Of a stretch of 40,312 nucleotides of DNA, positions 5,007 through 40,312 are shown piece after piece (position 1 is the stretch's first letter; each line of letters opens with the position of its first letter). The notes under the pieces were generated by a model. That model had not been told where the DNA came from. It did not search any database and worked only from the letters and a program-made list of their open reading frames with translations. Source of the DNA: Chitinophaga pinensis (lineage in GTDB: Bacteria > Bacteroidota > Bacteroidia > CAMBQF01); assembly GCA_945869825.1 (NCBI GenBank), contig CAMBQF010000008.1, positions 1-40,312 on the forward strand. The letters are read 5' to 3'. A program made the translations under genes and the position numbers.

Positions 5007-6659
5007 ATGAGAACGAATTTAAACATATCTTTTTCAGCCATGAAAACTGCAAAAGTATTTGCCTTAGTTGCAGCTGCCGGCCTTTTAGCATCTTGCAGCA
5101 ACCGCCTAAGCACCAAACAGTATTACGACGATGATATCTATTTCTCGTCTAAAGACCTGCGTAACTATACACCGCCCGTATTGTACCAACAATCAGACAG
5201 CGGTTCATACGCACCAAGCAACCGTAATAGCAACAGCGCCGCCACCACTCCCGACTACCAAAACGGGCAACGGGTAATTGATGATTATTATGATTATCAG
5301 TATGCCTCACGCATCCGCCGTTTCTATAACCCAAGCTTGGGCATGGGCTATTTCGACCCATACTATACCAATACCTATTGGTATAACTATAACCCGTACA
5401 GCTTTGGCACTAGTGTTTACACAACCTATAACTTTTGGCCAAACAGCTACAACTATTGGGGCTTTGGCAACCCTTGGGGCTACAACCCATGGGCAAACAA
5501 CCCGTATTGGGGATACAATAACTTTGGTTGGAATAGCTGGGGCTACGGTAGCCCCTGGATGCCTTACAACCCCTACGCCTGCGGCTGGGGCTACGGCAAC
5601 CCTGGTTGGGGCTACGGTGGCTGGGGCTACAACAATGGCTACTTCAACGGCTATAACAATGGTTATTATAATGGCTACTACAATGGCTTTAACGATGGAT
5701 TTGCCAATAACTACTATTTTAATGGGTTTGACAATAATAGCTACACTTACTATGGCCCATACAAACAAACAAGCTCATCGGGCAAGTTTAACAGCTTTGG
5801 CGAAAAGGTACAAACCGCTATGACTAACGATGGCGAGGTACTAAAATTTACCCCTGGCATAGGTGCGCAGAGCCCTACCAATGCTACCAATGCCAAACCA
5901 ATGAATTTTGACCCCGCTACACCGGGCAGCAAAGGCAACGCTAATACCAATGCCCCTGTAAAAGGTAATTTATCTGATATTAATGCGCCTGCCAACCTTG
6001 ACGAGAAAAATACCCCGGTAAATATGGCTAAGCCAAACAATGGTAAAAACCCTGCCGAAGGTAAACCAACCATTACTGGCAAACCTATACAGGTGTTTGA
6101 TTATAACGAGGCAGCCCCTGCCGGTAACAAAGGTAACCTGGGCACTGTAAACCCAAACCAGGGCAAACAGCAGGTAAGCCCTGCTATTGATAGCAAGCCT
6201 ACTCAAAAACCTGCTAATCAGGATTATGAGCGCCCGCGCAATGTAGAGCCGGTAAAACCAAACTACAATAATGAGCGTCCAGGTACTGTTGAGCCTGTAA
6301 AACCAAATTATAACGAACGTCCGCAGCAATCGCAACCAAGCTATAACGAACGCCCGCAGCAGTCAAAGCCTAATTATAACAACGAACGTCCGCGCGATAA
6401 TAACAATTACAACAGCGCACCGCAGCAAAGGCCACAAACTGCGCCCCAGCGTAATGAGAGCAAACCACGTACTGAAAATAACGACCGCCCTAAATACTCA
6501 GCACCACAAAACAACAACCGCAACAGCGGCGGTGGTTTTAACAGTGCCCCATCAGGCGGAAGCCGCGGTAACATGGGTAGCGGAAGTGGAAACGGCGGTG
6601 GAAACAATGGCGGAGGCCGCAACAATGCAGGCAACCCCGGCGGCAGGTCGCCCAGGTAA
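5007..6659 (+). CDS. Tyr/Asn/Gly-rich low-complexity lipoprotein
   Basis: ATG codons at 5007 and 5040 are both possible. From 5040 the product begins MKTAKVFALVAAAGLLASC, a textbook SPII signal peptide with lipobox LLASC, so 5040 is the likelier start. The mature protein has three compositional zones. First, about 160 residues very rich in Tyr, Asn, Trp, Gly and Phe with NPY/NGYYNGY-type motifs. Second, a Pro/Asn/Lys linker. Third, short imperfect repeats of the form PNYNERPQQS (about residues 405-475), ending in a Gly/Asn/Ser-rich tail. There is no catalytic domain. It is probably anchored in the outer membrane, disordered or adhesive; function unknown. It is followed after about 50 bases by an outer-membrane protein gene, so the two may be co-transcribed. 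Long antisense frames here come from the biased codon composition. Confidence 0.8.
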   Translation: MRTNLNISFSAMKTAKVFALVAAAGLLASCSNRLSTKQYYDDDIYFSSKDLRNYTPPVLYQQSDSGSYAPSNRNSNSAATTPDYQNGQRVIDDYYDYQYASRIRRFYNPSLGMGYFDPYYTNTYWYNYNPYSFGTSVYTTYNFWPNSYNYWGFGNPWGYNPWANNPYWGYNNFGWNSWGYGSPWMPYNPYACGWGYGNPGWGYGGWGYNNGYFNGYNNGYYNGYYNGFNDGFANNYYFNGFDNNSYTYYGPYKQTSSSGKFNSFGEKVQTAMTNDGEVLKFTPGIGAQSPTNATNAKPMNFDPATPGSKGNANTNAPVKGNLSDINAPANLDEKNTPVNMAKPNNGKNPAEGKPTITGKPIQVFDYNEAAPAGNKGNLGTVNPNQGKQQVSPAIDSKPTQKPANQDYERPRNVEPVKPNYNNERPGTVEPVKPNYNERPQQSQPSYNERPQQSKPNYNNERPRDNNNYNSAPQQRPQTAPQRNESKPRTENNDRPKYSAPQNNNRNSGGGFNSAPSGGSRGNMGSGSGNGGGNNGGGRNNAGNPGGRSPR

Positions 6660-6710
6660 ACAAAAATGGGGTTACCTTTTTTTAGTACTGAACTTTAATA
6701 AAGAATTTTG

Positions 6711-8234
6711 GTGAGAAATAATATCATAAAGTATATAGCAACATCGGTAGTAGCAATGCTGCCGATGTTTTTATTTGCCCAAAACGAGGACGATGCCTTG
6801 CGCTACAGCTACTACACACCCATTGGCAGTGCGCGCTTTTCAGCCATGGGTGGCGCTATGGGTGCCCTTGGTGCCGACTTTGGCGCATTAAGTACCAACC
6901 CAGCATCCATTGGTTTATACCGCCGCACCGAGATTAGCCTTACACCCAACTTTTATTTTGATAACACCACCAACCAATACTACGGTACCAGCCTTAACGA
7001 TAATAAGCTGAATTTTAATTTTAGTACCATAGGTGGTGTTTTTACATCGGTAAACAATGCGCTTGAAAGTCAATTAAAGGGAAAAAAGTTAAGTACGCGC
7101 GAGCGTAAAAAAATCAAAGGGTGGATGTCTTCATCGTTTGCTTTTGGCATAAACAGGTTGGCCAGCTTTCACCAAAACTATGTGGTACAAGGTACTAACA
7201 GCCAGAGCAGCATTGCCGATGCATTTGCAGCAAACTCGCAAGGCCTTACACCCGACCAGCTAAACCCCTTTGCCGAAGGCCTGGCTTACAACACCTATGT
7301 AACCGATACAGCAGGAAGCTTAAACAACTATGTAAGCTATGTAAAAAACGGTGGCACGCTGCAGCGCCTGCAAGCTCAAAACAAAGGCTCTATCAACGAG
7401 ATCATTTTCTCGTATGGGGCCAACTATAACCACAAATGGTATTTTGGCGGAACTATTGGTATACCCCGGATACGCTATACCACACAAACATCGTATACTG
7501 AAAGTAATGAGTCTGATACCTTATCTCCCGTAGAGGGTTTTACTTTTGATTCACTTCGCTTTGAGCAAACCAATGTAGTTAAAGGCTCGGGCATCAACCT
7601 AAAACTAGGTTTTATTTATAAGGTTAATGATATGTGGCGCTTTGGCCTTGCTTTCCATACCCCATCGTTTTTGCGCATTACCCAAAATTTTGAAAGCAGC
7701 ATGCGAGCACGTTTTACCTTTAACGGCAACCCTGCGGCCTTTGGTACTATACAATCGCCATTGGGGCAGTTTACCTTTAACCAGGTAACCCCCTTGCGCG
7801 CTATTGCCAGTATGGCTGTTGTTTTTGAAAAAAAGGGCCTACTGTCTGTTGAGTATGAGGTTGTGCCTTATGGTATGAATAAGCTAACATCTAGCACCTA
7901 CGATTTTGTAACAGAAAACCAGGCCATAAAAAACAAATATGCTACCGCAAGCAACATACGTGTTGGTGGCGAGCTTAGGCTTAGCGACCGTGTGGCAGGC
8001 CGTGCCGGCTTTGCTTATTTGGGCAACCCGTTTAAAAGTGAGTATGCCGCCCGAATAGGCTACAATGCATCGGTTGGTATTGGCTACCGTAAAGATGGTT
8101 TCTTTGCCGACTTTACTTACGTGTATGGCTACCGCAAGCAGGATTACTACATATACAACTCAGACCTTACCGCATCATCAAACATGGTTTCCGGCACCCA
8201 CAACCTGCTTATTGGTTTAGGGGTTAGGTTTTAA
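6711..8234 (+). CDS. Outer-membrane beta-barrel protein (OmpP1/FadL-like, 'hemin receptor' type)
   Basis: About 507 residues. A signal peptide (RNNIIKYIATSVVAMLPMFLFAQ) is followed by DALRYSYYTPIGSARFSAMGGAMGALGADFGALSTNPASIGLYRRTE. The alternating pattern and the AMGGA...GALSTNPA motif are typical of Bacteroidota FadL/PorV-like barrels, in which a hatch precedes the first strands. The remainder is alternating hydrophobic/polar strands ending in the C-terminal aromatic GLGVRF, as expected for BAM-inserted barrels. The substrate is unknown; FadL homologues move hydrophobic molecules, PorV-like ones serve T9SS. The start is GTG at 6711 (or TTG at 6708); no ATG retains the signal peptide. It converges on the minus-strand oxidase locus with only 18 bases between stops. 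Confidence 0.75.
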   Translation: MRNNIIKYIATSVVAMLPMFLFAQNEDDALRYSYYTPIGSARFSAMGGAMGALGADFGALSTNPASIGLYRRTEISLTPNFYFDNTTNQYYGTSLNDNKLNFNFSTIGGVFTSVNNALESQLKGKKLSTRERKKIKGWMSSSFAFGINRLASFHQNYVVQGTNSQSSIADAFAANSQGLTPDQLNPFAEGLAYNTYVTDTAGSLNNYVSYVKNGGTLQRLQAQNKGSINEIIFSYGANYNHKWYFGGTIGIPRIRYTTQTSYTESNESDTLSPVEGFTFDSLRFEQTNVVKGSGINLKLGFIYKVNDMWRFGLAFHTPSFLRITQNFESSMRARFTFNGNPAAFGTIQSPLGQFTFNQVTPLRAIASMAVVFEKKGLLSVEYEVVPYGMNKLTSSTYDFVTENQAIKNKYATASNIRVGGELRLSDRVAGRAGFAYLGNPFKSEYAARIGYNASVGIGYRKDGFFADFTYVYGYRKQDYYIYNSDLTASSNMVSGTHNLLIGLGVRF

Positions 8235-8252
8235 ACAGACGGAGCTATATTA

Positions 8253-8984
8253 TTAATGGCACTCTATAACCTTATGGTCATCAAGCTTGCTGCATTGGCT
8301 TACGGGGTGGTTATTGTGCATTAGGGGGCTAACGTAGGGTATGCCCAAATTCATTCCCCGTAAAATAAACAGGGTGCCAATAAGCACCATGGCGTAGGGT
8401 ACTAGTTTGCCCAGGCTTCGGCGGAGTGATAGGCTTACTTTGTTTTTTACCAGCACCAGGGTGGCCATTACGGGCAGGGTGCCTAAGCCAAACAGTGCCA
8501 TATATAGCGCACCAGAATACCAGTTGCCTGTGGTGGCGGCCCCGGCAAGGCCTATGTATACAAAGCCACAGGGTAATAGGCCGTTTAGCAGGCCTATAAC
8601 AAACAGGGTAATGAAACCTTTTTTGGCAAACTGCTTAGCCATGGCTGCTTGTAGCTTGCCAATTGCGCGGCTATAAAATTGGGGTGTGCCTGTAAAACTA
8701 CCAGCCAGTAGAGGTACGGATACCAGCAGCAGTATAAACACCCCCAATGCTATTGAAAATACTTGCTGAAACCCGGCTAACGATACGGTGTAGCCTATGG
8801 CACCAAAAACCAAACCCAGCAAGGCGTATGTAGTTGCCCTGCCTACGTTGTACAACACCGCAGCCCAAAGCCTGCCGCCTATGCCATGCCCGGGTACAGG
8901 CAGGGCAAGGGCTATGGGGCCGCACATGCCTATGCAGTGCAGGCTACCCAAAAGGCCAATGGTTAATGCGGCTATAAATTGCAT
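8253..8984 (-). CDS. TauE/SafE (DsbD_2)-like membrane protein of the cbb3 oxidase locus
   Basis: 243 residues with about six hydrophobic segments. Two pseudo-symmetric motifs are visible: GLLGSLHCIGMCGPIALALP at the N-terminus and GLLNGLLPCGFVYIGLAGA in the middle, each with Cys and Pro in a membrane segment as in the DsbD_2 / 'sulfite exporter TauE/SafE' family. Members next to cco genes are thought to take part in copper or cytochrome maturation. The C-terminal tail (HNNHPVSQCSKLDDHKVIECH) is His/Cys-rich and could bind metal. It is the last gene of the locus, starting two bases after the ccoH stop, so it is translated with ccoGH. Confidence 0.8.
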   Translation of the reverse strand: MQFIAALTIGLLGSLHCIGMCGPIALALPVPGHGIGGRLWAAVLYNVGRATTYALLGLVFGAIGYTVSLAGFQQVFSIALGVFILLLVSVPLLAGSFTGTPQFYSRAIGKLQAAMAKQFAKKGFITLFVIGLLNGLLPCGFVYIGLAGAATTGNWYSGALYMALFGLGTLPVMATLVLVKNKVSLSLRRSLGKLVPYAMVLIGTLFILRGMNLGIPYVSPLMHNNHPVSQCSKLDDHKVIECH

Positions 8985-30864: not shown

Positions 30865-31241
30865 CTATAAACTAAGGTAAATATATAATTGATTTATGAT
30901 ATGGTATACAAGGCAATAGTGTTTATTTTTAATACAATTATAAAAATATGGATAAACATGAACAATTTAAATGTACAATTTATTATTAAAAGCTAAAATG
31001 CTGATTACTAATTTTAACCATAGGTTGCACTACTGCACGGTAACCTGCTATTGCCAATGGTAAGAAGAAAAACAGTACTAAAACATAATAGCACAATAGA
31101 TGTTATTTAGCAATTTGTATTCAATTGTGGTATTCAGACTTAATGCTCTGTTGTATTAACTTTAAAACCATATATTGCTAATACTATTTAAAATCAAATA
31201 TAAAACTCTTAGTACCAGAGTTTGTATAGTGTACACCAATA
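30865..31241. other. AT-rich divergent intergenic region
   Basis: 377 bases between the divergent kinase and glycosyltransferase genes, very AT-rich, with no open frame that looks real. It must hold both promoters, but no box closely matching TTG-N19-TAnnTTTG was found in either direction. GGTT...AACC at about 31023-31048 is a weak imperfect stem. Confidence 0.4.
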
Positions 31242-31889
31242 ATGGAAGCAAAAAACCAGGCAACAATAACCGTATTGATGGCCACCTACAATACACCTTT
31301 TAGCATGTCCAAAAGAGCCATTGACTCTGTTTTAAACCAAGATTTTCAAGATTTTGAGCTAATAATTTTAGATGATGGGAGTGATATTGAAATCAGCTGT
31401 AAACTGCTTGAATATGTGCAACATTTTGACACTAAAATAAGTTATTATAAACATAAAAACAGGGGCCAACCTAATACAATTAATCGCGGAATTTTGCTTT
31501 GTAATAGCAACTATATTAGTTTTATAGATGCCGATGATGAGTACAAAGCAAATCACTTGTCAACTTGCCTTAACGCAATGGCCGATTATGATTTGATAGC
31601 TACACACACCGAGACTGTTGTGAATGCTTTTGAAGACCATTATGTGCCCGATGTGCATAATAATAATACCACAATCCATGTAGATGATTGTATACTATTT
31701 GCCACACTGTTTGGTAAAACAGAAGTATTTAAAAAGAATATTTTTGAAAACAAATACGGTGCCGATAGTACTTTTTACGAGCAGGTTTCAAAAAATTATA
31801 ATGTAGCAAAACTACCAACGCGCACCTACATATATTATCGCAATTATAGTAATAGCATGACCGCTATTATGAAAAATAATATTGATTAA
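31242..31889 (+). CDS. Family 2 glycosyltransferase (short)
   Basis: 215 residues with a GT-A fold: TVLMATYNTPFSMSKRAIDSVLNQDFQDFELIILDDGSD at the N-terminus (nucleotide-binding strand), NRGQPNTINRGI, then the metal-binding DxD motif in ISFIDADDEYKANHL. The part after residue 120 is short compared with usual GT2 proteins (250-320 residues) but ends in a plausible C-terminal helix and YYRNYSNS motif, so it may be complete though minimal. It probably transfers a sugar from a nucleotide donor to a surface polysaccharide or lipid; acceptor unknown. There is no glycan gene cluster around it, and its AT content is higher than that of the neighbouring genes, which may indicate transfer. Confidence 0.82.
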   Translation: MEAKNQATITVLMATYNTPFSMSKRAIDSVLNQDFQDFELIILDDGSDIEISCKLLEYVQHFDTKISYYKHKNRGQPNTINRGILLCNSNYISFIDADDEYKANHLSTCLNAMADYDLIATHTETVVNAFEDHYVPDVHNNNTTIHVDDCILFATLFGKTEVFKKNIFENKYGADSTFYEQVSKNYNVAKLPTRTYIYYRNYSNSMTAIMKNNID

Positions 31890-31976
31890 TTATTGAGGCT
31901 GGTATATTACCACTCTTAAAAATAAAGAATTCACCTCTGCAACCTTGCTACCTTTGATTTGATAGCATAATAATGA

Positions 31977-32153
31977 AAAACACTTAGCGATACATGCGAT
32001 GAAATACACCTACTACAAAAAGGCAAGCAGGTAAAAACAGCCTATAAAGCCGATTTTAAAGCATTGGAAGAAGAAATGAAAGCCGTAACTATTGGCAAAA
32101 ATAGAAAAACTGGAATTAAAATAATTAAGAATAAATCCATTAAGACCAGCTGA
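31977..32153 (+). pseudogene. Open fragment without start codon, possible gene remnant
   Basis: A 58-codon open stretch preceded by a stop and lacking an upstream start reads K-T-L-S-D-T-C-D-E-I-H-L-L-Q-K-G-K-Q-V and continues with helical, Lys/Glu-rich sequence (ADFKALEEEMKAVTIGKN) to a TGA at 32151. The composition is protein-like, and codons look natural, but no family is recognised. It sits at the left border of the phage-like island and could be the 3' end of a deleted gene. The rest of 31890-32182 holds nothing visible. Confidence 0.35.
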
Positions 32154-32182
32154 ATTTCAAGCAAATTAAATTAACATAATAC

Positions 32183-32500
32183 CTACCTACCCCTTATTAT
32201 TGCAATATTTTTAACAATAATATTATCGCCGGGGCGGCCTTGCAATTCCTTTTTAAGTTCATTAATTATAAATGGCTTAAGCTCGTTATGCACATATGTA
32301 AAATGATACTGGTGCCATTGGCCATTGCTTAAAATAAAGGTATTCCAGAAATCGTCAAAGCTAGGGTGTAGTTGCTCTTCGCCATCAGCACTTTCAACCA
32401 TGCCATGCACCACAAACTCGTATTTGCCCTTTGCCAACGACCTACGAAAAACAACCACACTTTGTGTTGCACTACTGTATTGAAAATACTTCTTCTCCAT
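32183..32500 (-). CDS. Hypothetical protein, 105 aa, at the island border
   Basis: MEKKYFQYSSATQSVVVFRRSLAKGKYEFVVHGMVES is strand-rich; the middle (LHPSFDDFWNTFILSNGQWHQYHFTYVHNELKPFI) is aromatic-rich and the C-terminus basic. No signal peptide, no membrane helix, no family recognised. Its ATG at 32500 lies only three bases after the T run of the repressor's terminator, so it has no room for a promoter of its own between them and must be made by read-through or from a promoter inside or upstream of the hairpin. It is probably a small accessory gene of the phage-like island on the repressor transcript. Confidence 0.6.
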   Translation of the reverse strand: MEKKYFQYSSATQSVVVFRRSLAKGKYEFVVHGMVESADGEEQLHPSFDDFWNTFILSNGQWHQYHFTYVHNELKPFIINELKKELQGRPGDNIIVKNIAIIRGR

Positions 32501-32503
32501 ACT

Positions 32504-32533
32504 AAAAAAAAGCCCCTCTTAATCAAGAGGGGC
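32504..32533 (-). terminator. Intrinsic terminator of the repressor gene
   Basis: On the minus strand GCCCCTCTT-GATT-AAGAGGGGC forms a perfect 9-bp stem with 4-base loop, followed by eight T. It begins 13 bases after the repressor stop and ends just before the ATG of the 105-residue gene. Confidence 0.9.
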
Positions 32534-32546
32534 AAATTATAAACCC

Positions 32547-33422
32547 TTATATCTCGTTTTTGTTTACCCAGCCCTTTACTAAAAACAGGCGGCGTACCTT
32601 GCTACGCGAAATTTCAAAATCATCAAAGCGTTCGTGGTTTTCAGACACTAACAGTATTTTATCGGGCTTGCTGCCTTTACGTACATACTTAACCATGCGG
32701 CGCTCATCTGTAACAATAAGGTATATCTGGCCAAACTCAACAACCTCAAGGTCGTAAATCTGCTTACAGATAATAATATCGCCATTTGAAATACGTGGGT
32801 ACATAGAGTGGCCCGAAACAGGCACGGCAAAGTCACAATCGGCAAAACCAGGTACTAATAAACTCTCGCGTGCAACTTCCTTACCATCAAAAATACGGTT
32901 AACATTACCTGCCGTAACATCAACCTCGTAATAAGGCAATGCACGTACTTTCTCGTTAAACATAGGACCAACGCCACTTAGCAACCATTGAGTATTAACA
33001 CCTTTAATGTTGCGCACAATACCTTCAAGCACTTTAGAGCTAACACCTATGCGGCGCTTAATAATATGAGAGATTGTATTAGGCTCTTCCCCAATTTTGC
33101 TTGCAAAGTCTTTTTGGTTAATGTCAAGCGAACGGATAAGTGTTTCTACCCTGTCATTAAGTATGAAAGAAGGGCCTTCAATTTTAACACCCGGCAGTGG
33201 CGATACTGCCTGTATCAATTTAGGCTTATTTTTGTTGCCCGAAAGCACAGACGAATCGACCTTGAAGAATTTAGCAATAGTGGCAAGGGTTTCAGGGGTT
33301 GGTGTGTTTTTACCAATCTCGTACAAACTAACCATTTGTTTGGTTATTCCGGTACCATCGGCTACTTGTTGCTGAGTCAGTCCTTTTTTAACCCGCAGGC
33401 TCTTAAGCTTTTCTGATAACAT
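32547..33422 (-). CDS. Phage-type self-cleaving repressor (XRE HTH + S24/LexA-like peptidase)
   Basis: 291 residues. Residues about 1-65 are an XRE helix-turn-helix (LKSLRVKKGLTQQQVADGTGITKQMVSLYEIGKNTPTPETL). Residues about 90-150 look like a second HTH (INQKDFASKIGEEPNTISHIIKRR). The C-terminal domain is S24: Ala171-Gly172 cleavage bond in VTAGN, nucleophile Ser206 in SGHSMYP, general base Lys244 in RMVKYVRK. The spacings (35 and 38 residues) match the LexA/CI arrangement, so induction by RecA-stimulated self-cleavage after DNA damage is likely (inference). It is divergent from the phage operon and TTGACAA motifs in the shared gap are operator candidates. ATG at 33422 fits the HTH start. 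Confidence 0.92.
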   Translation of the reverse strand: MLSEKLKSLRVKKGLTQQQVADGTGITKQMVSLYEIGKNTPTPETLATIAKFFKVDSSVLSGNKNKPKLIQAVSPLPGVKIEGPSFILNDRVETLIRSLDINQKDFASKIGEEPNTISHIIKRRIGVSSKVLEGIVRNIKGVNTQWLLSGVGPMFNEKVRALPYYEVDVTAGNVNRIFDGKEVARESLLVPGFADCDFAVPVSGHSMYPRISNGDIIICKQIYDLEVVEFGQIYLIVTDERRMVKYVRKGSKPDKILLVSENHERFDDFEISRSKVRRLFLVKGWVNKNEI

Positions 33423-33455
33423 AAATATAAGTTATTAACTTTTTTATATTTTTAC

Positions 33456-33487
33456 TTGACAATCGGCATCAATATGTTGTACCTTTG
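33456..33487 (+). promoter_or_regulatory. Early promoter of the phage-like operon
   Basis: TTGAC (33456-33460), 19 bases, then TACCTTTG (33480-33487): an excellent match to the Bacteroidota promoter. It drives the plus-strand genes from 33536, with a leader of about 45 bases, and faces away from the repressor gene. Confidence 0.8.
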
Positions 33488-33507
33488 CAAAATAAATTAC
33501 TTGTCAA
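33456..33507. promoter_or_regulatory. Candidate repressor operators (inverted TTGACAA pair)
   Basis: TTGACAA at 33456-33462 overlaps the -33 element and its inverse TTGTCAA at 33501-33507 lies 14 bases past the -7 box; each is embedded in a longer shared A/TACTTGNCAA. A third copy, CTTGACAA at 34011-34018, precedes the protease gene. Repressor binding is inferred from position only. Confidence 0.45.
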
Positions 33508-33535
33508 ATATAGTACAATATTAATAAAACCAAAC

Positions 33536-33769
33536 ATGCCAGCCAAAATTAATGGAACCTACGCACTTGCCAACGGCGATAAACTTTTTATATCGGCTTT
33601 ATCAGAAACCAACCATAATACAAACACATACAACATACCCCGGTTTGCAGGCAAAAGTATATATATAGATAATGTAGAGCTGTGTAAAACCAATGGCCTT
33701 AGGGTTGATGTTACCGAACTGGTGATAGAACTGGATAAAGACGAAATATTATTAAGTAAATGCGCATAA
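33536..33769 (+). CDS. Small hypothetical protein, first gene of the phage-like operon
   Basis: 77 residues starting MPAKINGTYALANGDKLFISALSETNHNT; a compact beta-rich protein, no signal peptide, not recognised. In-frame sequence extends upstream to 33485, but that would run through the predicted promoter start site, so ATG 33536 is chosen. As the first gene opposite the repressor it occupies the place of a phage early regulator, yet no helix-turn-helix is visible. Eleven bases separate it from the next gene. Confidence 0.6.
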   Translation: MPAKINGTYALANGDKLFISALSETNHNTNTYNIPRFAGKSIYIDNVELCKTNGLRVDVTELVIELDKDEILLSKCA

Positions 33770-33779
33770 ATAAACAACA

Positions 33780-33992
33780 ATGAATACCACCGAACGAGCC
33801 ATAGACATAGTAAACAGCTGCAAAAATGAACAACAAACCGAGGTTGCCACACGTTTTATTGAACTACTAATAAAACACAAACCCAACACATTATCAAAAG
33901 AAGAAAAAGCAAAATTATTATCTGCCATTGACACTAAACTAAACGACCTTAAACATGAACTTTTAACAAAACGACATACAGCATTTGCTTAA
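33780..33992 (+). CDS. Small helical hypothetical protein
   Basis: 70 residues (MNTTERAIDIVNSCKNEQQTEVATRFIELLIKHKPNTLSKEEKAKLLSAIDTKLNDLKHELLTKR), predicted all-helical from its heptad-like pattern, highly charged. Not recognised. It is second in the operon, between the first small gene and the prohead protease, separated from the latter by 66 bases containing a TTGACAA motif. Confidence 0.6.
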   Translation: MNTTERAIDIVNSCKNEQQTEVATRFIELLIKHKPNTLSKEEKAKLLSAIDTKLNDLKHELLTKRHTAFA

Positions 33993-34058
33993 AAAATATC
34001 AAGCGATACACTTGACAAAAAAAACTAAACCAAAGAACTAATTAAACCGAACTTACTT

Positions 34059-35147
34059 ATGCCAAAAACTGCACATATTTATATCTATGGGGATATAATA
34101 AACGAACAATATGCCGAAATTGAGGAGCAAGGCTACACCTCGCTAACATCTGTAATACACTCTGTAAAAGCACAAGCCAAATTCGACGAATTGATTGTCC
34201 ATATCCACTCGCGGGGTGGAGACGTAACCGAGGGCTTTGCAATTTACGATTACTTACGCTCGCTTAAAAAGCCGGTTACTACTATTATTGACGGCTTATG
34301 CGCTTCAATAGCCACCATTATAGCATTAGCCGGCGACAAGCGAAAGATACAGCCCAACTCAGAATTTTATATTCACAACCCCTGGGGCAATGTAACAGGC
34401 AATTACAATAGCGTAAACCAATATGCTGAAGAATTGAAAAAAGCGGAAGAACGTATCCTGAACTTTTACTATCAGCACACCAACGGCGATCCGGACAATT
34501 TGCGGGAATTGATGGATAACCAAACAACACTATCGGCAACTGAAGCCTTAGGCCTGGGCTTTGTTACCGAGATTGTAGAGCAGGAACGTGCTTTTGCTAT
34601 GCTAAACCCCAAAAAAGAAAAACCAAAAAACAACAAGCCAAACATGAACAAAGCGCTAAAATTAGCACAAACAATTATGCACAAGCTATCAGGGCAAGGG
34701 CCTATATTGGCATCTTTAGCAGAAAAGCTTGACACCGGCGAACCAATCTTTATTTCCGGTTCTGATGAAATACCCAATGTTGGCGATACGCTACACATGG
34801 GCGCCGATGAAACAGCACCAACAGCCTCAGCAGGAACTTATACTCTTGAAAATGGAACTTTATTGCAAACAGATGAAGATGGCAAAATTCTATCAGTTAT
34901 TCCGTGCACAGAGGATGACACGGCTGAAATAAATGCCCTTAAAGAGTCGGTAAAATCATTGCAGGCCCGTTTACAAGAAAAAGATAAAGCAGAGAATATT
35001 CTGGTAAAAGAGCTGGAAGGAATAAAGGCACAAATACAAAGCACTTACGAACCTAAAGGCAGGCAAAAAGAAGTATTAACACGCCATGCAGCAGCAGATA
35101 GAAACCGTGTAGCCGAAGCAACAGAACGCCGCAAAGAATATAAATAA
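34059..35147 (+). CDS. ClpP-like phage prohead protease with scaffold-like C-terminus
   Basis: 362 residues. Residues about 5-175 are a ClpP-fold serine protease: oxyanion region HIHSRGGDVTEGFAIYDYLR, nucleophile Ser83 in DGLCASIATIIALAGD, His106 in EFYIHNPWG. The spacing of 23 fits ClpP-type phage head maturation proteases. The catalytic Asp position (relative to the L-S-A-x-E-A motif at 158-163) appears to be Gln155. From about residue 180 the protein is a Lys/Asn linker, a small beta segment and a coiled coil (about 280-330, DDTAEINALKESVKSLQARL), resembling a fused scaffolding domain, ending in a basic tail. It would direct head assembly and then cleave scaffold and capsid. It directly precedes the capsid gene by 22 bases. 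Confidence 0.87.
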   Translation: MPKTAHIYIYGDIINEQYAEIEEQGYTSLTSVIHSVKAQAKFDELIVHIHSRGGDVTEGFAIYDYLRSLKKPVTTIIDGLCASIATIIALAGDKRKIQPNSEFYIHNPWGNVTGNYNSVNQYAEELKKAEERILNFYYQHTNGDPDNLRELMDNQTTLSATEALGLGFVTEIVEQERAFAMLNPKKEKPKNNKPNMNKALKLAQTIMHKLSGQGPILASLAEKLDTGEPIFISGSDEIPNVGDTLHMGADETAPTASAGTYTLENGTLLQTDEDGKILSVIPCTEDDTAEINALKESVKSLQARLQEKDKAENILVKELEGIKAQIQSTYEPKGRQKEVLTRHAAADRNRVAEATERRKEYK

Positions 35148-35169
35148 ACTAAAAGTTAAAATAAAAAAT

Positions 35170-36237
35170 ATGCCAATTTTAAATCCTACAGACTTAACCT
35201 TTAATGGCAAGGAAGTTCAATCTCTTTCTGGTGCCATATTTAGTAAAACATTTAACAAACCCTCATTAAAAGAGTTCCATCAAATTGTTGAGGGAATAAA
35301 AGCCAAGCAGCAAATAGTATTTTTAGGGCTAATGGGCCTTACCGGCAAAAAGAAAACCGGTTGCTCAACGCCCATTGGAACCAATACCATTCAAAACTCT
35401 GAGAAATACTGGAACCCGGTTATTATTGCTGAGAAATTTGGTGAATGCTGGGATACAATAAAAGAAACCTTTTTTGTATGGGGTACAAAAAACGGTATCA
35501 GTCGTGATGACCTAACCGATACCGACTTTGCAAACTTTTTGGAAGACCGCATGAGCGATGCTTTACTTGAAGCGTTATTCCGTGTATCGTGGTTTGGCGA
35601 TAAAACTGCGGAAGAAGCACCCGATGGCTTATTAACAGCTGGTACAGACGTTGATTACTTTAACCCTGTTGATGGATTTTGGAAGCAGTTGTTTGCAATA
35701 GCACCAAGCTCAGGCTCACCAAGGCGTGTAGAGATTACTCGTAATGCACAAACAAGCTATACGGCACAGGCTTTTACCAATACCGACACAACCAATATGG
35801 TGGCAACCAACATATTTGCATCATTAAAATATAATTCCGATTACCGCCTGCGTGAGCAAAACAACCTTGTTTACATTGCTACACAGAGTTTGACAGACCA
35901 ATATGTAAAGGAACTGCGCTCACAACAATTGGATGCATCATTCACACGAATTGAAAGCGGTTACCAGGCAATAATGTTTGAAGGTATACCCGTTATTCCG
36001 GTAAACTTTTTCGACCGTTACATCAGAGATTATTTTGATGACGGAGATAAACTATACATGCCACACAGGGCTGTGTTAACCACTACCGACAATTTAGCTA
36101 TTGGCGTTGAAAGCAGTAATAACTTATCAGAATTAGATTCCTGGTTCTCTCGCGATGACAGGAAATACTATGTAGAATTTTCTGTAAACATAGATGCTAA
36201 AGTGTTAGAAGACGAACTGGTACAAGTTGCCTATTAA
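35170..36237 (+). CDS. Probable major capsid protein
   Basis: 355 residues, soluble, mixed alpha/beta. It starts MPILNPTDLTFNGKEVQSLSGAIFSKTFNKPSLKEFHQIVEGI; the C-terminal part contains GVESSNNLSELDSWFSRDDRKYYVEFSVNIDAKVLEDELVQVAY, the dense acidic/aromatic ending often found in HK97-fold capsid proteins of Bacteroidota phages. The motif TTTDNLAIGV resembles the 'TTPDNLxxG' segment before the C-terminal strands. The identification rests mainly on position directly after the protease-scaffold gene and on length. No N-terminal propeptide is evident. The 197-residue gene follows after 20 bases. Confidence 0.7.
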   Translation: MPILNPTDLTFNGKEVQSLSGAIFSKTFNKPSLKEFHQIVEGIKAKQQIVFLGLMGLTGKKKTGCSTPIGTNTIQNSEKYWNPVIIAEKFGECWDTIKETFFVWGTKNGISRDDLTDTDFANFLEDRMSDALLEALFRVSWFGDKTAEEAPDGLLTAGTDVDYFNPVDGFWKQLFAIAPSSGSPRRVEITRNAQTSYTAQAFTNTDTTNMVATNIFASLKYNSDYRLREQNNLVYIATQSLTDQYVKELRSQQLDASFTRIESGYQAIMFEGIPVIPVNFFDRYIRDYFDDGDKLYMPHRAVLTTTDNLAIGVESSNNLSELDSWFSRDDRKYYVEFSVNIDAKVLEDELVQVAY

Positions 36238-36257
36238 CAAATAAAAAAATAAAAAAC

Positions 36258-36851
36258 ATGTCAGCATGCACAGGCATAACAGCCTCTATTTTAATAAATT
36301 GCGACCAACCTCTGGTAGTTGGTACAAAAGATATATTATACCTGATAAACAGAGATGATATAGACAACATAATGTTTGACTCTACATTAGATTCTGGCAT
36401 TAATCAACTTGCATTATCTCTCAATTTGATTTCCTCGCGATATATATACAAAATTGAGGGGCGGAATAATAGTAATGAACCAAGCGCTGTATTAAGGAAA
36501 GGGCGATACTTTGATACTTACGAGCATAAAATATCTTTCAAAGTGTTTGGCAATGGCCCGGAGATTAAGAGCCAGCTGGAAAGCATGATACAAGCGGGCA
36601 ATCTGGTAGCTATAATTGAAAATAACTACCGTGGTACCGGCGATGCATCAGCATTTGAAATATATGGTTATAATGCAGGCCTTGAAGTAATTGAATGCTC
36701 TAGGGTTATTAATGACAATGATACCCAGGGTGCATACTCCATTGTATTAAAAACGCCTGAACAGCAGGGGGAACCACATTTACCCTACTCACTATTAGCA
36801 GGAGATTATACAGCAACAAAAGAAATGTTGAATAACCTGCTTGCCCCTTAA
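36258..36851 (+). CDS. Unidentified structural-type protein of the capsid module
   Basis: 197 residues (MSACTGITASILINCDQPLVVGTKDILYLINRDDIDNIMFD). The Cys-containing N-terminus and strands such as EHKISFKVFGNGPEIKSQLESM and GTGDASAFEIYGYNAGLEVIECSRVINDND resemble tail-tube or head-decoration type beta proteins of Bacteroidota phages, but no specific family is recognised. It ends just before a strong terminator, so it is co-expressed at the high level expected of the capsid protein. Decoration or tail-tube protein are the two main possibilities. Confidence 0.6.
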   Translation: MSACTGITASILINCDQPLVVGTKDILYLINRDDIDNIMFDSTLDSGINQLALSLNLISSRYIYKIEGRNNSNEPSAVLRKGRYFDTYEHKISFKVFGNGPEIKSQLESMIQAGNLVAIIENNYRGTGDASAFEIYGYNAGLEVIECSRVINDNDTQGAYSIVLKTPEQQGEPHLPYSLLAGDYTATKEMLNNLLAP

Positions 36852-36861
36852 TTTTTCAACC

Positions 36862-36890
36862 AACTCCGGAGCTGTTGCTCCGGAGTTTTT
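36862..36890 (+). terminator. Strong intrinsic terminator inside the phage operon
   Basis: A perfect 11-bp stem, AACTCCGGAGC / GCTCCGGAGTT, with a TGTT loop, and five T in a row at 36886-36890. It separates the protease-capsid part from the portal part. Confidence 0.93.
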
Positions 36891-36902
36891 AATCTATACA
36901 GA

Positions 36903-37085
36903 ATGGAACTAACCGAACTATTTACCAAGGGTGTTAGCTGGGCTATGAACAACCCGGTAGGCCGCAGTGTATTTGCCAAAGCATATAAAAAGAAAACAGG
37001 CAAAGATGTATGTATGAGTTGCCCCGCAGATATCTATAAAAAGTACTTTGAACTAAAAAAAATAACCCAAAACAATAATGGCTGA
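36903..37085 (+). CDS. Small basic hypothetical protein before the portal gene
   Basis: 60 residues (MELTELFTKGVSWAMNNPVGRSVFAKAYKKKTGKDVCMSCPADIYKKYFELKKI), Lys-rich, with a CMSC pair that could bind metal. Not recognised. It begins only 12 bases after the terminator and its end overlaps the portal-like gene by 8 bases, so translation is coupled. Similar short proteins precede portal genes in some phages, but no function is proposed. Confidence 0.65.
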   Translation: MELTELFTKGVSWAMNNPVGRSVFAKAYKKKTGKDVCMSCPADIYKKYFELKKITQNNNG

Positions 37086-38208
37086 AATACGAACTTCAAT
37101 AATAAAAAACGCATCACGGTTTAGTGTTACAAATAACCAGATAGACGGCATAGTAAATTACGATATTGACAATTGTTACCCGCAACGTGTAGCAGATATA
37201 GTCCAGGGTTCGGCAGTGGCCAGTAAATGTGTTGATGTGTATACTAAGTTTATTGCAGGGCAGGGTTTTGAAGATAAACAATTTTACAAAAAACACACCA
37301 ATCCACAGAAGCAAACACCGGATATTTTGCTAAGAAAAACGGCTCATGATTATGCTTTACATCGCGGCTTTGCTTTGCACATTAACTATAACGCCAATTT
37401 TAAAATATCATCAATAAGCCACATACCTTTTGAACATTGCAGGTTAGGCATACCCGATGAATTAAATTACATAAGAAAAATAGCTATATACAATGATTGG
37501 GGACGTAAACGTTCAAGGCAAATCAGAAAAGACAATATTGACCATATTGATATTTACAACCCAGACCCTACTGCAATAAAAGCGCAGGTTGAAGCTGCCG
37601 GAGGTTGGGATAAATACAAAGGCCAGGTATACTGGTACAGTGCTGATGGAAATGAATACCCTCGTGCTACAGCCGACGCTGTGTTAGAAGATTGCATTAC
37701 CGATTCGGAAATCAAAACCTATAAGTGGCGCGCCATAAGCACTAATTTCATGGCATCGCATATTTATGTACACCGCGGATATTTTGAAAACGATGAGTCG
37801 CGGATGGATTTGCACACTGTGCTTAACTCCTTTCAAGGCAGTGATAATGTAGGTAAGATAATGATGGTAGAAAGTCCGGGGGAAGAATCGGACCCGAAGT
37901 TGCTAAAGGTTGATGTACAAAATTTTGACAAACACTTTGAATACACTGAACAATCGGTACAGGATAATATTCGTTTGTGCTTTGGCATACCATCCGTACT
38001 TATAGGCAAAGAGGTTGCAGGTAAACTGGGCAACAGCCAGGAAATTGAACAGGCCGTTAACTATTACTCTTACCAAACATTGAATGAGCGACTAATAATG
38101 GAAGAAGTATTTTCTGAGTTGTTCAGCATGTTTGCAACACCCATAAACCCTAGTAATAATTATGCAATAAAACCCTTAAGCTATGCCCCAACTACTCTTG
38201 GCAACTGA
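37078..38208 (+). CDS. Phage portal-like protein
   Basis: 376 residues. Typical portal features: an N-terminal clip of short helices with CVDVYTKFIAGQGFED, a middle with YALHRGFALHINYNANFKISSISHIPFEHCRLG (portal wing strands), and a C-terminal stem region TEQSVQDNIRLCFGIPSVLIG followed by LGNSQEIEQAVNYYSYQTLNERLIMEEVFSELF, the hallmark helix that forms the portal channel. Somewhat short for a portal (usually 400-550 residues). Twelve copies would form the DNA gate at one vertex of the head. Its start overlaps the preceding small gene and its end overlaps the next gene by 26 bases. Confidence 0.8.
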   Translation: MAEIRTSIIKNASRFSVTNNQIDGIVNYDIDNCYPQRVADIVQGSAVASKCVDVYTKFIAGQGFEDKQFYKKHTNPQKQTPDILLRKTAHDYALHRGFALHINYNANFKISSISHIPFEHCRLGIPDELNYIRKIAIYNDWGRKRSRQIRKDNIDHIDIYNPDPTAIKAQVEAAGGWDKYKGQVYWYSADGNEYPRATADAVLEDCITDSEIKTYKWRAISTNFMASHIYVHRGYFENDESRMDLHTVLNSFQGSDNVGKIMMVESPGEESDPKLLKVDVQNFDKHFEYTEQSVQDNIRLCFGIPSVLIGKEVAGKLGNSQEIEQAVNYYSYQTLNERLIMEEVFSELFSMFATPINPSNNYAIKPLSYAPTTLGN

Positions 38209-38695
38209 TTTTGCCACTTATAAAGAACTATCATTAAATATTGATGATACTACCCGCATTAACCCATACATTTTACAAGCCCAACAGTTTGACTTGAAGC
38301 CACTGGTAGGCGAAGTGTTTTATAAAGACATGCTCGATAACCCAACCTCAGCAGAAAATACTTTGTTGCTTAATGGCGGAACTTATAGCTATCAAAATAC
38401 TAACTATGAATTTTCCGGATTAAAGATAGTACTGGCTTATTATGCTTATGCACGCATTATCGAAAACCAGAACATACACGTAACGAGGTTTGGTGTTGTG
38501 TTTAAAAACAATGCAGATGTATCGGAACGGGTAGATGAAAAAACGCTGCAACGACTAATAATCCAAGCCCGAAACCAGGCCCGCGCCTATTGGGATGAAT
38601 GCCTGTTATTCCTAAACAGAAAAAGCACTTCTTATCCGCTATGGGCCAATCATTCAACTACTAAACCACGGATTAATATTAGTGCCGTGGGATAG
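38183..38695 (+). CDS. Probable head-tail connector protein (DUF6712-like)
   Basis: 170 residues. Pattern: NIDDTTRINPYILQAQQFDLKPLVGEVFYKDMLDN, then FSGLKIVLAYYAYARIIENQN, then a C-terminal helix QARNQARAYWDECLLFLNRKS. This helix-rich layout resembles small head-tail connector proteins next to portal genes in Bacteroidota phages (DUF6712-type); the family name is from memory, not searched. It is translationally coupled to the portal gene by a 26-base overlap, which supports a role at the portal vertex. Confidence 0.6.
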   Translation: MPQLLLATDFATYKELSLNIDDTTRINPYILQAQQFDLKPLVGEVFYKDMLDNPTSAENTLLLNGGTYSYQNTNYEFSGLKIVLAYYAYARIIENQNIHVTRFGVVFKNNADVSERVDEKTLQRLIIQARNQARAYWDECLLFLNRKSTSYPLWANHSTTKPRINISAVG

Positions 38696-38729
38696 CAGAT
38701 TAAAATCAACATACTAAAAAACTAAACCA

Positions 38730-39008
38730 ATGGAACCTGATTTAACCTGGGTATACTCTACCCTGTCGGCGGCGGGTGGGGCAACTGTTACATGGCTGTT
38801 TAGCCGTAAAAAACAGCATGCCGAAACCGTACAAACAGAACTGGATAATGTGCAAAAAGCCGTAGCGATATGGCGGCAAACCGCTGAAGACCTTAAAAAG
38901 GAAGTGGAACAGCTGCGCGCCGAAGTAAAAGAACTACAAAAAGTAGTAGCCGATTTACACAAAGAAAATCTTGCCTTAAAAGAGCAAGTATCAAAATTTA
39001 ATACTTAA
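38730..39008 (+). CDS. Membrane-anchored coiled-coil protein (holin- or spanin-like)
   Basis: 92 residues: a short N-terminal hydrophobic segment (WVYSTLSAAGGATVTWLF, residues about 7-24), then RKK and an almost continuous coiled coil (AETVQTELDNVQKAVAIWRQTAEDLKKEVEQLRAEVKELQKVV) to the end. The topology suggests a cytoplasmic or periplasmic rod on the inner membrane. It precedes the endolysin by four bases, so a holin or lysis-accessory role is plausible but not shown. Confidence 0.65.
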   Translation: MEPDLTWVYSTLSAAGGATVTWLFSRKKQHAETVQTELDNVQKAVAIWRQTAEDLKKEVEQLRAEVKELQKVVADLHKENLALKEQVSKFNT

Positions 39009-39012
39009 GCAA

Positions 39013-39522
39013 ATGCAACTAAGCCAACAATTAACACTTGCCAATTTTACTATTTTAACAGATGATGTGTTACACCAGTTAGGCGAAAGCCCCACTGCTG
39101 TTAAACTAAAATATAAAGAACAATTTAACCCGCCACCAAGCATTGTAGCCAATATGCAGAAGCTGAGTAGCAAGCTGGATATTGTAGCTATGAAGATGAA
39201 AGCATCGGGGTACGGGTTTGACATTACCAGCGGGTACCGTTGCGAGCGGTTGAACACCGCGGTTGGCGGAAAGAAAAACTCTGCCCACGTGCGCGGGCTG
39301 GCTGCCGACATACGCTTTACTAACCAGCAACACGCCAAGGAACTGATTGACGCACTAATTGCCGCCGGGTTTAAACGCATCGGTTTAGGCTCATCATTCA
39401 TCCATGCTGATATTGACAATACCCTGCCCCAACCTGCCTGCTGGTTATACTCAGCTAAGTTTAAAACACCCGCATGGCTCGCCGCGTGGGAAAAAAACAT
39501 TGAAAGTCAGCTTAAGAATTAA
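39013..39522 (+). CDS. Peptidase M15 family endolysin
   Basis: 169 residues, no signal peptide. The M15 zinc site is complete: SGYRCERLNTAVGGKKNSAHVRGLAADI supplies His92 and Asp99, and FIHADID supplies the third ligand His131. Such enzymes cleave D-Ala peptide bonds in peptidoglycan; in phages they act as endolysins. The first 45 residues (LTDDVLHQLGESPTAVKLKYKEQFNPPPS) are helical and may position the enzyme. Adjacent membrane proteins on both sides support a lysis cassette. Confidence 0.88.
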   Translation: MQLSQQLTLANFTILTDDVLHQLGESPTAVKLKYKEQFNPPPSIVANMQKLSSKLDIVAMKMKASGYGFDITSGYRCERLNTAVGGKKNSAHVRGLAADIRFTNQQHAKELIDALIAAGFKRIGLGSSFIHADIDNTLPQPACWLYSAKFKTPAWLAAWEKNIESQLKN

Positions 39523-39540
39523 AAGATAAAGAGATAAAAA

Positions 39541-40212
39541 ATGAAGGAATGGAAAACATACGCGCTTGCATTATGTAGTTTAATAATTATTGCTTTGCTG
39601 TTAAAAGGGTGCGTCAATAAATCAGTTTACGAAAATGAAATATCAGTATTAAATGACAAACTGGTTAAGCAGGGTGCCGAACTAAAAACTACTAAACAAA
39701 AAGATAGCAGCAAGCTATATGTAATGGAGCAAAAACTAATGAGCGAGCGCCATGCCCGCATTCTGGCAGAAGATGCGTCAAAACGCTTTAAAAGCCTAAC
39801 TGCGGTTATAAAAACCACCGTAGATGTGCGGCGCGATACTGTTTGGATACCGTTTAACGATGGCAGCCCCCTCCTAACCTCCCCCCAAGGGGGAGGAACA
39901 GACTCAACCAATATTGATATTGCTTATAATGACAAATGGTTTTACTTGGGTGGAACAATAAGGCAAGGCGGATTGCTATTAGACAGTATTGGGTTTAAGC
40001 CCGGCTACGTAAATGTGCTTATTGGGGAACAACGCCGTGGGATATTTAAAAAGCCTTTACCCATAGCAGAGTTGCAGGTGGAAAACCCCTATATGCATAT
40101 TACCGGAGCCAATAATGTTATTGTAAAAGACTCGAGCAAAAAACCTTTACTATTAAGCCGCACCGCTATGTTAGTTTATGGGTTTGTGTTGGGGATGGTG
40201 GTTATGAGGTAG
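39541..40212 (+). CDS. Bitopic membrane protein, spanin-like, with an inserted C-rich palindrome
   Basis: 223 residues. N-terminal hydrophobic segment (YALALCSLIIIALLLKGC, residues about 6-23), then a coiled coil (NEISVLNDKLVKQGAELKTTKQ through about residue 80), a beta domain with YNDKWFYLGGTIRQGGLLLDSIGFKPGYVNVLIGEQRRGIFKKPLPIAELQVENPY, and a C-terminal hydrophobic segment (AMLVYGFVLGMVVMR). The IGEQRRGIFKKPLPIAE block resembles a domain seen next to lysins in Bacteroidota phages. Residues about 110-119 (SPLLTSPQGG) are encoded by an interspersed palindrome. The protein may bridge membranes during lysis. Last gene of the module. Confidence 0.65.
   Translation: MKEWKTYALALCSLIIIALLLKGCVNKSVYENEISVLNDKLVKQGAELKTTKQKDSSKLYVMEQKLMSERHARILAEDASKRFKSLTAVIKTTVDVRRDTVWIPFNDGSPLLTSPQGGGTDSTNIDIAYNDKWFYLGGTIRQGGLLLDSIGFKPGYVNVLIGEQRRGIFKKPLPIAELQVENPYMHITGANNVIVKDSSKKPLLLSRTAMLVYGFVLGMVVMR
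39868..39898. repeat. C-rich interspersed palindrome inside a coding region
   Basis: CCCCTCCTAACCT leads into CCTCCCCC-CAA-GGGGGAGG (39878-39896), an 8-bp perfect stem with a 3-base loop. This kind of sequence is known as an abundant dispersed repeat in some Bacteroidota genomes and is tolerated in frame, here encoding SPLLTSPQGGG. Family knowledge is from memory; copy number here is unknown. Confidence 0.6.
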
Positions 40213-40252
40213 ATTATAACAACGATTATATGACCTTTTGCTAGCTTACAGG

Positions 40253-40290
40253 ACAACCTCAGCCGTAATGTTGGGGTTGTTTTGTTTTAT
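40253..40290 (+). terminator. Intrinsic terminator at the end of the phage-like operon
   Basis: ACAACCTCA (40253-40261) pairs with TGGGGTTGT (40272-40280), 9 bp with one G-T pair and a 10-base loop, followed by TTTGTTTTAT. It lies 40 bases after the last gene and closes the operon. Confidence 0.75.
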
Positions 40291-40312
40291 GTTCTTTGAT
40301 TTATTGGTAAAA

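Follow-up and report, generated by a model that had tools for sequence, protein, structure and literature searches.

The right end of the window, which is the whole 40,312-nucleotide contig CAMBQF010000008.1 (C8) of Chitinophaga pinensis, from a freshwater lineage of Bacteroidota, carries a compact group of phage-derived repressor, head, portal and lysis genes at 32183-40212, here called cluster A (Table 1). According to our analysis, this cluster is probably half of a siphophage-type particle system that the host has domesticated and inherits vertically; the most likely kind is a gene transfer agent (GTA). The other half, cluster B, holds packaging and tail genes and lies on another contig of the same genome (C62, 3669-11583). 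The reading is based on gene content, the split layout, synteny, selection and the lack of an integrase on both contigs. A wider claim is more tentative and falls just short of what we would call probable: that this is a functional Bacteroidota GTA, domesticated independently of the known families, split around clpP-tig-clpX, with sister systems in the family of a more distant genome (G047, on three contigs) and in half of the Mucilaginibacter genomes sampled.

The window's own genome, G000, is fragmented (2.98 Mb in 189 contigs), and C8 stops 100 bp past the last gene of cluster A. Since the window is the entire contig, an absence of genes on the right side is not visible from it, and the right flank was therefore read in two other genomes of the genus, the complete congener G001 (a single 4.16-Mb contig) and G002, a metagenome-assembled genome (MAG) of a third species. 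In G001, cluster A, from the gene of the 105-aa protein to that of the 223-aa protein, is followed by peptidase, clpP, tig, secreted protein, pdhB-like and ceramidase genes. Contig C156 of G002 has the genes for DUF6712, the 92-aa protein, the M15 endolysin and the 223-aa protein, then two small genes, clpP and tig. In G000 the tig-clpP pair is found on a separate 3.6-kb contig, C183. An earlier reading of the window, made from the sequence only, had described the gene order of cluster A; this order is kept in the three species, and the neighbours to the right are also kept. The same sequence-only reading had offered the left arm of a prophage as one of three options, but G001 and G002 do not support it: to the right they have only clpP-tig, and neither a normal tail nor a terminase or an integrase immediately beside the cluster. 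An assembly artefact or simply an ordinary prophage, with a contig break that conceals a contiguous element, could be suspected from the 189 contigs of G000 and the end of C8 at the cluster, but the split is visible in the single-contig G001, G002 independently joins cluster A to clpP-tig, and cluster B lies between host genes on C62. We consider this explanation very improbable.

The terminase of G000 was found on C62 by a phrog_2 search, while a search for the large subunit (TerL) by PF03354 gave no match. The protein matches PF04466 (Terminase_3, 4e-28), with intact ATPase and nuclease motifs. TerL and a small TerS-like gene are read leftward, and six genes (229, 157, 154, 473, 640 and 347 aa) rightward. 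As judged from these sequences, cluster B contains TerL, a TerS-like protein, connectors, baseplate-like proteins and a short tape measure, the 347-aa product, which aligns with the C-terminal part of tape measures. Its neighbours are clpX and proS to the right and genes for a 958-aa and a 156-aa protein to the left, so it is bounded by non-phage genes on both sides. In G001, cluster B is located 13.5 kb from cluster A, with clpP, tig and pdhB, essential genes of the host, between them, and lies beside clpX and proS. The phage-derived DNA totals about 14.6 kb, like the ~14-15 kb of the known agent RcGTA. The claim that packaging and tail genes are absent is thus true of the locus and not of the genome, since cluster B holds them near clpX-proS; they are split off, not lacking. 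Also locally the absence of a tail is only partly right, as the product of 36258-36851, earlier called an unknown structural protein, looks like a tail tube. The 958-aa gene beside TerL (C62, 787-3663) is low in GC, and nothing in the G001 and G002 regions matches it. A link between its product and an 830-aa protein, which adjoins TerL in G047, was rejected, as the two show no similarity.

No integrase or replication gene was found in cluster A or B between the host genes, and within cluster A this agrees with the earlier statement that 32183-40290 holds no terminase, integrase or replication gene. Tyrosine recombinases are found neither on the two G000 cluster contigs nor in the G001 region; those of G000 are on C63, C50 and C98 only. 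Around cluster A, or between A and B, there are no att-like direct repeats of 12 bp except for one chance match. The integrase with replication or excision genes beside the structural genes that marks a temperate prophage is therefore not seen. Phage satellites of the phage-inducible chromosomal island type (PICI), including the capsid-forming cf-PICI, have an integrase with a primase or regulator and use the tail of a helper, whereas here the tail genes are in the host genome. The compact capsid-portal island without terminase within the window would suit a cf-PICI-like satellite borrowing a helper's tail, another option of the earlier reading, but we give it hardly any credence: no integrase, primase, satellite regulator or other satellite-type gene was recognised, terminase and tail genes are supplied by the genome itself, the tail tube is inside cluster A and the position is fixed in three species. 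The remaining option, a domesticated particle of the GTA-like kind, fits best of the three.

Between species, the median ratio of nonsynonymous to synonymous substitution rates (dN/dS) is ~0.1 over the genes of clusters A and B. For G000 and G001 dS is ~0.6 to 2.6, saturated in two genes, and dN/dS ranges from 0.016 to 0.25 in cluster A and from 0.07 to 0.31 in cluster B. The lowest value is that of the capsid (0.016), and the repressor and the M15 endolysin (both 0.04), portal (0.06) and protease (0.07) are also low; cluster B has 0.12 for TerL, 0.11 for the 473-aa protein, 0.09 for the 640-aa protein and 0.10 for the tape measure. Across comparisons, the capsid stays at 0.016-0.033 and the repressor at 0.03-0.04. 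Host genes treated by the same method give 0.03-0.19, except for one response regulator at 0.28, probably a paralogue. By this measure both clusters are under strong purifying selection. The split layout and the right-hand neighbours are common to the species, so the insertion is older than the species and the selection most likely took place inside the host. An ancient prophage, split by chromosomal rearrangement and slowly decaying without any particle function, with genes that linger or are kept for side effects, would explain why replication, integration and fibre genes are gone, why the tape measure is short, why host genes separate A from B and why cluster B is lost in G002. However, every gene of A and B is open in G000, dN/dS is well under 1 at high dS in capsid, portal, protease, TerL and the 473-aa and 640-aa proteins, and head, packaging, tail and lysis functions are retained together as a full set. 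We regard decay as unlikely.

The proteins of the window were searched against Pfam and PHROG profiles, and selected proteins were modelled by AlphaFold2 (AF2) and compared with the PDB by fold search. The repressor, protease, capsid, portal, connector, M15 endolysin and terminator named in the sequence-only reading are all borne out by open reading frames (ORFs), profile matches and the hairpin at the end of the cluster.

Table 1. Features of cluster A in the window (HTH, helix-turn-helix).
Feature	Coordinates	Strand	Evidence or remark
105-aa protein, function not assigned	32183..32500	-	3' of repressor; adjoins repressor in 3/3 species
S24/LexA-type repressor	32547..33422	-	HTH_3 4e-20, Peptidase_S24 6e-13, phrog_4 3e-42
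Divergent control region	33423..33484	.	Putative operator and promoter
94-aa protein, function not assigned, first gene of the operon	33485..33769	+	ORF
70-aa protein, function not assigned	33780..33992	+	ORF
Head maturation protease, ClpP fold, scaffold-like C-terminal part	34059..35147	+	CLP_protease 8e-35, phrog_94 2e-61
Major capsid protein	35170..36237	+	phrog_38780 3e-45, phrog_1623 ('virion structural') 2e-7
Probable tail-tube (major tail) protein, 197 aa	36258..36851	+	phrog_21217 7e-22, AF2 model pLDDT 70
Terminator-like hairpin between tail-tube gene and 60-aa gene	36862..36887	+	Consensus match only
60-aa basic protein	36903..37085	+	Homologue at the same place in nearest viral contigs
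Portal protein	37078..38208	+	phrog_11226 1e-73
Head-tail connector/adaptor, DUF6712	38183..38695	+	PF20459 4e-27; connector role inferred from position
92-aa coiled-coil protein, holin/spanin-like, weak membrane segment	38730..39008	+	phrog_8369 5e-9
M15 endolysin	39013..39522	+	PF08291 4e-13, phrog_894 3e-20
223-aa spanin-like protein, N-terminal membrane segment	39541..40212	+	Hydropathy 2.3 at residue 7
Intrinsic terminator closing cluster A	40248..40285	+	16-bp stem and T-run

For the tail-tube candidate, the top fold matches in the PDB are a monocin tail tube and head-tail connector, baseplate and neck proteins, and lower matches include the SPP1 and lambda tubes, Hcp and one chain of the GTA particle 6tba. 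Almost all top matches are tail tube, neck, tail-terminator or Hcp folds, with E-values of ~0.01 and TM-scores of only 0.2-0.5, and the model suggests that the protein has the tail-tube fold class. The AF2 model of the capsid (pLDDT 43) was too poor to confirm a fold and was not used. The hairpin after the tail-tube gene may determine in what proportions the proteins are made.

The repressor has two HTH regions N-terminal to the S24 domain. All its self-cleavage residues are present (Ala171-Gly172, Ser206 in GHSMYP, and Lys245), and from these it is probably cleavable via RecA and the SOS response. The control region contains a perfect 6-1-6 palindrome, AAGTTATTAACTT, at 33429-33441, which is conserved in G000, G001 and G002, has no other exact copy anywhere in the G000 genome and is the probable operator. 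Beside it is a rightward TTG..TACCTTTG, which we take to be a Bacteroidota-type promoter according to the TTG/TAnnTTTG consensus. The 105-aa protein is 50-55% identical in G001 and 83% in G002, and has no match in Pfam or PHROG. An Rfam scan of 31000-40312 gave no match.

The nearest viral contigs are L137-L143 of IMG/VR (e.g. IMGVR_UViG_3300034064_000394); the Bacteroides phage BS-TP3 was also compared. Most genes of cluster A have homologues in L137-L143, with identities of 53% for the capsid, 58% for the portal and 55% for DUF6712, and the 640-aa and tape-measure proteins of cluster B have homologues in L139 (40% and 39%). Homologues of the 92-aa and 223-aa proteins are located in the lysis regions of L143 and L138, respectively. 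The capsid is also 28% identical to gp3 of BS-TP3, noted in its record as phage major capsid. However, the viral contigs have the contiguous order 640 - tape measure - protease - capsid - tail tube - portal - DUF6712, L138 has a fibre-like protein and lysis genes after the head genes, the tape measure of L139 has 837 aa against 347 aa here, and BS-TP3 has an annotated integrase. In the portal tree the genus of the window is sister to L137-L143 (support 99/97), and in the capsid tree the grouping of the two is unresolved. Based on the nearest viral contigs and the portal tree, the element most likely descends from ordinary phages that lost their fibre, replication and integration genes and whose tape measure became shorter.

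The GC content is 39.9% in cluster A and 44.6% in cluster B of G000, and 39.8 vs 44.5% in G001, despite differing flanks. Separate origins of the two clusters, considered due to this difference, are thought unlikely since A and B share their nearest viral contigs as far as this can be compared (640-aa and tape-measure proteins); the nearest relative of TerL is in G047 and not in those contigs. Reading by eye, with no family search, L139 has several glycosyltransferase-like genes and one methyltransferase-like gene between tape measure and head protease (5160-8325). In L150, a more distant viral contig, a RecT-like gene was read by eye after the lysis genes.

Searching the class with the portal profile, we found relatives in 15 of 395 genomes, from 9 of 197 genera. 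G047, of another family, has protease-capsid-tube-portal-DUF6712 on C143, TerS (PF16677)-TerL on C6 and homologues of 150, 154, 473 and 637 aa on C71, and host genes adjoin all three pieces. For Mucilaginibacter, the capsid is present in 76 of 150 genomes, nearly always in single copy and mostly with 80-96% identity to the query, and its distances follow those of tig (Mantel rho 0.62, 0/5000 permutations as high). These clusters are built of the same gene families and include TerL, tail and head genes, often with an S24 repressor upstream, but they are contiguous (TerS-TerL-tail-head-fibres), with a long tape measure and a variable fibre region, and the portal is ~40% identical. Among ten loci the TerS/TerL-tail-head order is largely kept in nine, G512 being rearranged; in G430 the tape measure precedes the 229-aa homologue. 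Host-like genes adjoin the loci of G279 and G505, where no integrase-like protein was seen by eye (no profile search). From their sequences these clusters (L073-L084, L089-L108) are possibly a separate, more widespread GTA-like system. Some Mucilaginibacter genomes show lineage-specific damage to the capsid gene or its rearrangement: it is split by an internal inversion in G466 (C9, L111), lies in two frames in G419 and is only partly present in G402, G433, G447 and G440.

Particle assembly, random packaging, DNA delivery and SOS control are parts of the mechanism that we propose for the system. The S24 repressor would keep the operon off at 33423-33484 until it is cleaved upon DNA damage or some other signal of the RecA type, as the intact cleavage residues suggest. 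Both clusters would be expressed after induction, and capsid and ClpP-type protease would build a prohead on the portal. TerL, presumably of the headful type, would then pack whatever DNA it meets, and this would be mostly host DNA since genes for replication and excision are lacking and no function for packaging the element's own DNA is recognisable. Terminase_3 takes in headful enzymes such as SPP1 G2P, so a TerL of this family suits non-specific packaging. The prohead would be joined by a short siphovirus-type tail made with the tube and the 347-aa tape measure. A tape measure gives ~1.5 Å of tail length per residue, and by this analogy 347 aa implies a tail of ~50 nm; the tail of RcGTA is near ~50 nm. 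The M15 endolysin and its partners would finally lyse the cell and release the particles, with the net effect of a GTA.

A GTA is defined by six features (PMC9662315), of which two can be read from the sequence here. The proteins are caudoviricete-derived (capsid, protease, portal, TerL and tape measure by homology, tail tube by fold), as judged from genes alone with no particle seen, and the genes are endogenised over multiple loci: two, with host clpP-tig-pdhB between them in G001 and no integrase or replication genes at either. The other four features are a cargo of mostly random host DNA, a head with too little room for the element's own genome, vertical descent along with the host, and transfer of the cargo into other cells. 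With two of six features, we class it not as a GTA but as a domesticated particle system with, most likely, GTA-like function. Compared by gene content, it resembles RcGTA (Rhodogtaviriformidae, Alphaproteobacteria) in its caudoviricete-derived head, portal, terminase, short tail and lysis genes, and in more than one chromosomal locus, the lack of integrase and replication genes and, probably, host-fixed inheritance (PMC9662315). By description, it also resembles Brachyspira VSH-1/BhGTA and Bartonella BaGTA in having phage-derived, probably host-fixed genes without full phage functions, and the genome of BhGTA is likely spread over several loci (PMC9662315). In contrast to RcGTA, the gene order and modules are different, with two half-clusters around clpP/tig/clpX and an S24 repressor beside the head operon, and the system is known from genes alone, with particle and transfer only proposed. 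BaGTA has a linked origin of amplification, whereas none was seen here.

PBSX of Bacillus is a host-fixed defective phage particle with SOS control and a contractile tail. It is a possible analogue, differing in that no sheath is seen here. A PBSX-like killer particle, made under SOS control with small heads that hold random host DNA or none, would kill relatives without gene delivery. The same gene content, S24 repressor and lysis genes included, would suffice for it, and structural genes alone would not separate a GTA from a PBSX-type particle. However, no receptor-binding fibre or immunity gene was recognised beside the cluster, and the missing fibre counts against this explanation since killing specificity would need one. 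We find it rather less plausible than decay.

Several points weigh against a domesticated GTA-type system. It is known from genes alone, with neither a particle nor packaged or transferred DNA on record. No recognisable receptor-binding fibre was found in cluster A or B, and no operator common to both, the best match in B having three mismatches (chance level). The genus is represented by three genomes only; orthologous position and low dN/dS in the three species would fit co-inheritance with the host, but three are too few for a congruence test. The split in G047 is seen in a fragmented MAG, where no tape measure was found. In G001 there are frameshifts in phage genes (portal, 229, tape measure), and as often in host genes (tig, clpP, 156, 191, 143), a pattern that resembles sequencing error. 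Cluster B of G002 is damaged: no tail genes lie in the stretch from TerS to the final 22 tape-measure residues, and an in-frame TAG interrupts TerL, so loss of the system is possible. The sequence-only reading took frameshifts in homologues as a sign of decay; damage of this sort, an in-frame stop and gene loss, is found in one of three species and in cluster B only, whereas those cluster A genes that were read in G002 show none. That a GTA is lost from individual lineages would be unsurprising, yet this loss also feeds the decay explanation. The gap in cluster B of G002 holds a methyltransferase-like gene fragment, according to a by-eye reading.

Three GTA families were formally classified in 2022, two of Alphaproteobacteria and one of spirochaetes (PMC9662315). 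Lateral transduction is described in Bacteroides, and GTA activity in gut Oscillospiraceae and Ruminococcaceae (PMC12946183). In the literature, judged mainly by titles and abstracts and with subscription papers and preprints thinly covered, we found no report of a GTA in Bacteroidota, Flavobacteria or Mucilaginibacter. As far as we know, the system may therefore be the first GTA candidate in Bacteroidota. The Mucilaginibacter relatives include cultured species, among them M. phyllosphaerae, which carries the cluster, and this makes direct testing feasible. Bacteroidota is a dominant phylum in water, soil and gut, and if the reading is true, the system would add another virus that was domesticated independently and might offer this phylum a way to exchange genes.

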